Assembly: GCA_028877215.1 (NCBI GenBank)
Contig: JAPPFJ010000024.1
Coordinates: 110,989 to 174,988 of the forward strand
DNA length: 64,000 nt
From: Gemmatimonadota bacterium
GTDB lineage: Bacteria; Latescibacterota; UBA2968; GCA-2709665
Reading direction: 5' to 3'
This document shows positions 50,427 through 52,250 of this stretch, piece by piece (positions within the stretch are counted from its first letter, which is position 1; each line of letters starts with the position of its first letter). The notes beneath the pieces are model-generated. The model ran no database searches, was not told where the DNA came from, and saw only the letters and a list, made by a program, of their open reading frames with translations. The translations under genes were made by a program, and so were the position numbers.

Positions 50427-51395
50427 ATGAGTCGGGCGAAAAACTGTGACATATCGGCGGCTTTGGATCGCGCGAAGGGTGCGCTGGTGGGGCTGGCGCT
50501 GGGCGATGCGCTCGGTACGACGCTCGAATTCTCCGCGCGGGACACCAGGCCGCCGGTTACCGACATCGTTGGTGGAGGTCCATTCGGCCTGGCCGCCGGT
50601 GAATGGACCGACGATACGAGCATGGCACTGTGCCTCGCCGAGTCGCTGCTGGAACGGGACCGGCTGGACGTTCGCGACCTGATGGACCGGTTCCTGCGGT
50701 GGCGCGATGAAGGACACAACTCGGTCACGGGCGTGTGTTTCGATATCGGCAATGCCACTGACGGCGCGCTCCGGTCTTTTCGGGAAACCGGCGAGCCGTT
50801 GAGCGGGAGCACCGATCCCCGGACCTCAGGAAACGGTTCGCTGATGCGGCTCTCGCCGGTGGCGATCCGCTGGTGGCGCGACCTGTCCAAGGCGACGGCG
50901 GCCGCCCGGCTGCAGAGCCGAACCACCCACGGCGCCCCTCAGGCAGTGGAGGCGTGTGCGCTCTTTGTCGAACTGCTGATCGAGGCGATCGCCGGTGCGC
51001 CGAAGGAGACCGTCCTGCGCGGCAGAGACTGGAGAGGCGATGCGCTGATTGCCGACGCGGCCGCCGGATCGTGGCGCGCAAGGGAGCGTGACGCCATCTC
51101 CTCGTCGGGGTACGTCGTACACACGCTCGAAGCGGCGCTGTGGTGCGTGGACAGGTCGGAGTCCATCGAGGATGCCCTGATTCTGGCCGCCAATCTCGCT
51201 GATGACGCCGACACGGTGGCCGCGGTCACGGGACAGCTCGCCGGCGCGCTTTGGGGCACGTCTGGCGCTCCGGCCGCGTGGCTCGACAAACTCGCCTGGC
51301 GCGACCGCCTGGAGGCGCTCGCCGCCGGCCTGTTCGAGGCCGCCAACAGCGAGCGGGCCGGTACCGCTGGCGAAGCGCCAACGCTATCCGAGTAG
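50427..51395 (+). CDS. ADP-ribosylglycohydrolase family protein
   Basis: GALVGLALGDALGTTLEF, GEWTDDTSMALCLAESLL, GNGSLMRLSPVAI, ANLADDADTVAAVTGQLAGALWG. Confidence 0.95.
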   Translation: MSRAKNCDISAALDRAKGALVGLALGDALGTTLEFSARDTRPPVTDIVGGGPFGLAAGEWTDDTSMALCLAESLLERDRLDVRDLMDRFLRWRDEGHNSVTGVCFDIGNATDGALRSFRETGEPLSGSTDPRTSGNGSLMRLSPVAIRWWRDLSKATAAARLQSRTTHGAPQAVEACALFVELLIEAIAGAPKETVLRGRDWRGDALIADAAAGSWRARERDAISSSGYVVHTLEAALWCVDRSESIEDALILAANLADDADTVAAVTGQLAGALWGTSGAPAAWLDKLAWRDRLEALAAGLFEAANSERAGTAGEAPTLSE

Positions 51396-52250
51396 ATTTC
51401 TGTACCGCAACCCTACCGCTTCCTTTACCAACTCCAGGGTCCGCTGGCCTTCGATCCTCGCGTCGGACCCTCCCAGATGCAGAATATCCCTGACCAGGCT
51501 CCGTCTGCCCTCCAGCTTGGCCCGTGCGCTCTTAAGCGGTTCAGGCAAGGGGGCCGGCTCCGTCGTGCCCGCCGAAAGAGCCCGACCGGTGTCCATGGAC
51601 ACGCCGTGGGCTTTCGCCGGTACCCGCTTCGCGGATTCGACAACGTCAATTCTGCCAGTGTGGTAACCGCTCATCCCGACATTGCGATCCGTGCCAACGT
51701 GCTCTTCGCCGTACTCGCACTTCGTTTCCGGGAAGACCGGGCCGAATTCGCGATTGAAACGCCTCGCCCGTTCCCGGGCCTGTTCGACGTACGACCGCTG
51801 ATCTGGCACCACAAACACGCTCGCTGGTCGAAACGCCAACAGATCCGCCGTCTGAAGCACGGTATCACCGATTGAGTCGGGTGTGAGCGGCTGCCTGGTT
51901 GCATCGGGCTCATCCCGAACTTTCGAAATCCCCGTTGAAGCGGACGGCCGCAACGAATGGTTCAGTATGATCGCCAGCTCTCCCAGTTGCGGCACCTGCG
52001 ACTGTAGAAAACAGACGCTTCGTTCCGGATCGAAACCCGACGCCAGAACGTCCATGACCAGATCTCCAACATCCTCCTGAACCCTAATCGAATCCCCTCC
52101 CACAGCGTTTAAAGTCAGATAGTCCGTGATCATGAAGAAACATCGGGCTTCCCTCTGTCTGTCCAGCAGGGGCTTCAAGAATCCGAAATAGTGCCCCCGA
52201 TGCATGCTACCCATTGGCCGAATGCCGGCCAGAACGACTGGACGGTTCAT
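51384..52250 (-). CDS. Tryptophanyl-tRNA synthetase paralogue with degenerate KMSKS
   Basis: 288-aa; RPMGSMHRGHYFG (HIGH class motif) and TrpRS-like QSQVPQLGELA, TVLQTADLLAF; KMSKS position reads GMSGY. Confidence 0.8.
   Translation of the reverse strand: MNRPVVLAGIRPMGSMHRGHYFGFLKPLLDRQREARCFFMITDYLTLNAVGGDSIRVQEDVGDLVMDVLASGFDPERSVCFLQSQVPQLGELAIILNHSLRPSASTGISKVRDEPDATRQPLTPDSIGDTVLQTADLLAFRPASVFVVPDQRSYVEQARERARRFNREFGPVFPETKCEYGEEHVGTDRNVGMSGYHTGRIDVVESAKRVPAKAHGVSMDTGRALSAGTTEPAPLPEPLKSARAKLEGRRSLVRDILHLGGSDARIEGQRTLELVKEAVGLRYRNLLG

Follow-up and report, generated by a model that had tools for sequence, protein, structure and literature searches.

A degenerate TrpRS paralogue in one order of Latescibacterota, very probably non-charging and perhaps retained as a non-catalytic fold

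In the window (the whole 64,000-nucleotide stretch of DNA analysed here), the housekeeping TrpRS gene (52521..53597, minus strand; 358 aa, intact KMSKS) is accompanied by an adjacent TrpRS-like paralogue of 288 aa without KMSKS (51384..52250, minus strand), and at the threshold of the genome search these are the two TrpRS-like genes in total of the window genome. Does the shorter gene still encode a tRNA-charging enzyme, and if not, is it gradually decaying, or has a former enzyme been put to a use that involves no charging? The paralogue is an open reading frame with 28% identity to its neighbour (BLASTP E=3e-31); it matches Pfam tRNA-synt_1b (PF00579, class Ic Rossmann fold) at 9.1e-17, and its top-scoring solved structure is the Chlamydia TrpRS 6ncr. 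Its score against the NCBIfam trpS equivalog (107.9 bits) is below the cut-off of 176.75. Judged from its sequence, the protein very probably does not charge tRNA, and we lean towards the view that it is a degenerate auxiliary TrpRS, retained as a non-catalytic fold (dimer core and C-terminal helix).

Residue positions were assigned by alignment to E. coli TrpRS. As the preliminary description had stated, the HxGH signature is kept (MHRGHYFG, residues 16-23, on the E. coli TIGN (HIGH) site; H17-R18-G19-H20 at 52191..52202, minus strand), and the KMSKS loop is replaced by GMSGY (residues 192-196; 51663..51677, minus strand), which aligns exactly on E. coli K195-S199, with glycine in place of each lysine. 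No intact KMSKS is present elsewhere in the 288 aa. The same GMSGY is found in the independent assembly of a sister genome (G001), whose paralogue is 85% identical to that of the window genome (G000); this rules out a sequencing or assembly error, and the deletions described below likewise recur in several assemblies. The sister copy has moreover lost HxGH, reading AHQRDY at this site (HQRD in place of HRGH). Among the anticodon-reading residues, whose roles, together with that of Lys274, have been described for the E. coli enzyme (PMC12135181), T225 is replaced by M and the K274 segment is absent from the window copy. The earlier suggestion that the protein may have ceased to charge tRNA in the usual way is thus well supported, by the loss of KMSKS, T225 and K274 and by the nearest relative, which lacks HxGH as well.

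The paralogue is indeed about 70 aa shorter than the neighbouring TrpRS (288 versus 358 aa), but the “shortened C-terminus” originally reported has to be corrected. The C-terminal 52 residues (51387..51542, minus strand) align throughout and are the best-conserved part of the protein; the loss is internal, at E. coli positions ~242-281 (some 44 residues when set against the 332-aa orthologues of the window paralogue), and a C-terminal tail peculiar to the housekeeping enzyme accounts for most of the rest. In E. coli TrpRS, residues 184-298 constitute the anticodon-binding domain and residues 299-334 lie within the aminoacylation domain (PMC12135181). By these boundaries the window protein has kept the catalytic domain together with the C-terminal helix belonging to it, the anticodon domain being largely removed or degenerate.

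Structure prediction agrees with this picture. The AlphaFold2 model of the window protein (40-sequence alignment; mean pLDDT 73) exceeds pLDDT 90 across much of the Rossmann core and the C-terminal helix, and falls below 50 at residues 103-125 (part of CP1) and in most of residues 183-231, so that the check proposed in the preliminary description places disorder at the former KMSKS/CTD site (segment 183-236; 51543..51704, minus strand). A model of a trimmed relative (G006, see below) was better (pLDDT 84, pTM 0.83). For both proteins the best PDB fold matches are TrpRS, and the best 50 listed for the window protein are TrpRS structures except for one designed protein. The residues kept in the copies of G000, G001, G005 and G015 cluster in two blocks, CFLQS.VP.L.EL, which runs into the CP1 segment, and V.D.L..G...AR...Q.TLE, in the C-terminal helix. 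CP1 is dimer-forming in TrpRS (PMC12135181), and the C-terminal 52 residues correspond to the TrpRS helix that is packed against the catalytic domain.

More can be learned from the surrounding clade than from the window gene alone, which is one member of a clade with repeated trimming or loss. Searches covering both relatives and the class found the paralogue confined to one order of Latescibacterota (named records carrying it are Latescibacterota, plus MAGs labelled Gemmatimonadota or Gemmatimonadetes), and the tree groups all 17 copies together, separating them from the 15 included housekeeping TrpRS from that order (split 100/100). An intact gene of ~332 aa is found in 10 of the 21 genomes of the order (one cut by a contig end), with, where compared, HxGH, a KM(S/G)(K/T)S loop and a Cx20Cx6Cx2C motif. 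The one orthologue compared with solved structures (G007) is closest to Deinococcus TrpRS II (290 bits) and Thermotoga TrpRS. From these motifs and likenesses, the ancestor was probably a working auxiliary TrpRS. A TrpRS of another family of the phylum (G051:C243:6093-7076) is 51% identical to the intact paralogue; it is closer to it than the housekeeping TrpRS of the order are, and may bear on the origin of the paralogue. A mobile or viral origin was rejected, as no relative was found among viral contigs, and plasmid matches were below 60% identity, the named ones being annotated trpS or tryptophan--tRNA ligase.

The remaining copies have been shortened in different ways. Three genomes (G006, G009 and G013; loci L016:1330-2073, minus strand, L015 and L014) share an in-frame deletion of the KMSKS/anticodon segment (E. 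coli 197-284; clade support 100/90), which yields 248-aa proteins with HxGH kept (that of G013 cut by a contig end). The G005 copy (235 aa), immediately after trpS, lacks HxGH, KMSKS and most of the anticodon domain, residues 180-269 having been lost. In G015 the HxGH and KMSKS/anticodon regions are both lost and three in-frame TAG codons are present, although the frame is kept across ~220 codons (L042:1340-2010, minus strand); this remnant is probably a young pseudogene, and TAG recoding was rejected because neighbouring genes there terminate with TAG. In G002 and G003, which belong to the window's genus, the paralogue is absent and trpS directly adjoins the glycohydrolase gene; nor was the paralogue found in G004 and G018. 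The absences and the three stops indicate that the gene is dispensable. Since the clade holds all stages (intact, anticodon domain excised, motifs lost, deleted), the order of losses can be traced. The copies of G000/G001, G005 and G015 sit on long branches of the tree and may have degenerated once or several times.

Such a spectrum is what plain decay would produce, i.e. a dispensable second TrpRS becoming a pseudogene, caught at different stages in different genomes and with no new function. The codon comparisons speak partly for this explanation and partly against it. For the G000-G001 pair the paralogue has a dN/dS of 0.38 (bootstrap 0.24-0.60), and trpS of the same pair about 0.05-0.09; all these estimates are pairwise and based on few differences. 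Residues 1-236 show 51 non-synonymous and 33 synonymous differences (dN/dS ~0.5), which is compatible with relaxed constraint and, like the HxGH loss in G001, favours decay. Residues 237-288 show 3 and 11, respectively (dN/dS ~0.08). The contrast between the C-terminal 52 codons and the rest (Fisher p=0.008) is optimistic, as the boundary was picked after the data had been seen. Nevertheless, an overall ratio significantly below 1, with 0.08 in the C-terminal part, means that the window gene is not simply neutral. The convergent ADP-ribosylglycohydrolase gene (50424..51395, plus strand) overlaps the paralogue with its last bases, but an overlap of only 12 bases was rejected as the cause of the C-terminal conservation.

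Two further results stand against decay. The frame is intact despite ~1.7 changed residues per site on the stem of the paralogue in the tree, whereas neutral simulation from the intact form to the observed divergence produced ~9 stops and interrupted the frame in every one of 200 runs, even with substitutions only (indels would add further disruption). In addition, the trimmed trio is under strong purifying selection: G006 and G009 differ by 17 synonymous and 5 non-synonymous changes (dN/dS 0.08, 0.016-0.19, not above the intact copies), so selection can maintain a TrpRS that lacks both KMSKS and the anticodon domain. As dN/dS averages over time, selection on the G000 or G001 copy may have been relaxed only lately. 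Taking both sides together, we regard plain decay as quite possible, though not as the explanation to be preferred.

Our preferred reading remains a degenerate, non-charging TrpRS retained as a fold. What has been observed is that the motifs and anticodon-reading residues are gone, that the frame is unbroken, that selection acts on the protein (strongly on the C-terminal helix, weakly towards the N-terminus) and that other trimmed relatives retain a similar core. The ancestor would have been an auxiliary TrpRS alongside the housekeeping TrpRS in a single Latescibacterota order, and in the window's genus both Trp-AMP formation and tRNA-Trp anticodon reading would have been lost. A folded, non-catalytic protein would still be made, consisting of the Rossmann core, the CFLQSQVPQLxEL strand-helix toward the dimer interface and the C-terminal helix; that the paralogue is expressed at all, we infer. 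Such a protein would act by binding rather than by catalysis, as a homodimer or with TrpRS, possibly in Trp sensing. Retention of Asp135 (which binds the indole NH) and Gln150 in the window copy makes a Trp sensor possible, but, while Asp135 is also kept in G001, it is replaced by Tyr in G005, and this uneven retention of the Trp pocket, with Y128 changed to D in the window copy, speaks against the preferred reading. The more far-reaching proposal, that a TrpRS-derived pseudo-synthetase family in Latescibacterota, made up of motif-less or catalytic-domain-only members, is selected for a non-charging role, e.g. as a TrpRS-binding or Trp-sensing dimer, is possible but tentative.

The preliminary description had also considered a drug-resistance variant and an enzyme using aminoacyl-adenylate chemistry for another purpose; neither is supported, as both would require ATP motifs, and these are disappearing. 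An indolmycin-type resistance TrpRS, or a decoy binding the inhibitor or Trp, would fit the TrpRS II-type relatives, the Gln that intact orthologues carry at E. coli His45 (as in the aligned Deinococcus TrpRS II) and the known theme of a second, resistant TrpRS (PMC9437257). However, resistance by replacement requires charging activity, against which the motifs argue; the Trp-pocket residues are not uniformly kept among degenerate copies (Y128 to D in the window copy, D135 to Y in G005), and no linked biosynthetic cluster was seen across the genomes examined, which makes this explanation improbable. Least probable of all is a still active adenylate-forming enzyme with an unusual ATP loop and tRNA or another acceptor. 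In its favour, the window copy retains HRGH, Asp135, Asp149 and Gln150; against it, both KMSKS lysines are gone, the loop is predicted to be disordered, the 85% identical sister lacks HxGH and G005 lacks both motifs.

Comparison with known systems places the clade more precisely. Deinococcus radiodurans TrpRS II (2a4m, 1yi8) is likewise a second TrpRS beside a housekeeping one, and the intact G007 protein scores best against it, but it is a tRNA-charging enzyme that has nitric oxide synthase as its partner, and the window copy lacks KMSKS; such a partnership was rejected, as nitric oxide synthase (PF02898) was absent from all 47 class genomes (controls positive). The four cysteines of Thermotoga maritima TrpRS (2g36), which we take to be a [4Fe-4S] site, are kept in the aligned intact orthologues, whereas the window copy, G005 and the trio have lost this segment. 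The auxiliary indolmycin-resistant TrpRS of actinomycetes is also a second TrpRS, ~30% identical to the housekeeping one; it is active, which from its sequence the window paralogue is not expected to be. TrpRS constructs without the anticodon domain have been made in the laboratory, and the trio form resembles them. GluQ-RS and the cyclodipeptide synthases (AlbC) are similarly catalytic-domain-only relatives of class I synthetases; they are enzymes, however, and none is among the best 50 fold matches of the window model. SLIMP, HisZ, ErdS and other aaRS-like non-charging paralogues have followed the same route, from duplication to loss of catalytic or anticodon elements with the fold kept. We know of no bacterial TrpRS paralogue with a non-charging function, and a pseudo-synthetase family, if real, would be the first. 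For many other amino acids, synthetase paralogues without a charging role have been described. The table of a 2022 review gives no paralogue function for TrpRS (PMC9437257).

The local context suggests how the gene would be expressed. A strong intrinsic terminator follows trpS (52360..52391, minus strand; also conserved in G001, with an equivalent in G005), so the paralogue is probably a separate transcription unit. A Shine-Dalgarno-like AGGGAG (52259..52264, minus strand) lies 8 nt before its ATG; between G000 and G001, 47 of the 50 bases upstream of the ATG are identical, as are 99 of 100 between -200 and -100, where the terminator lies. A consensus scan found no sigma-70-type promoter, which is weak evidence, and no Rfam match was obtained within the window. 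A GNAT acetyltransferase gene adjoins the paralogue in several genomes but was rejected as a conserved operon partner; elsewhere it stands beside nuo or trpS where the paralogue is absent, and the linkage is therefore probably inherited gene order.

Several features of these loci were recorded in passing. The trpS-adjacent ADP-ribosylglycohydrolase of G003 (L048, near 2958-3257) is apparently a fragment, covering residues 215-314 of the window's protein. Just upstream of the intact paralogue of G007 there are four small ORFs in tandem, almost identical to one another (MMAT.VEELQAQQNAFQTRQADFEKGQG...; L053:7879-9623, plus strand). The window itself also contains a putative lipoprotein gene (46007-46891, minus strand) with a DUF4377 domain apparently repeated about three times, and a 3077-aa ORF (36675-45908, minus strand) with a polyketide-synthase-like start (QPIAIVGMACRFPG); similar ORF starts are found in G001, G002 and G003.
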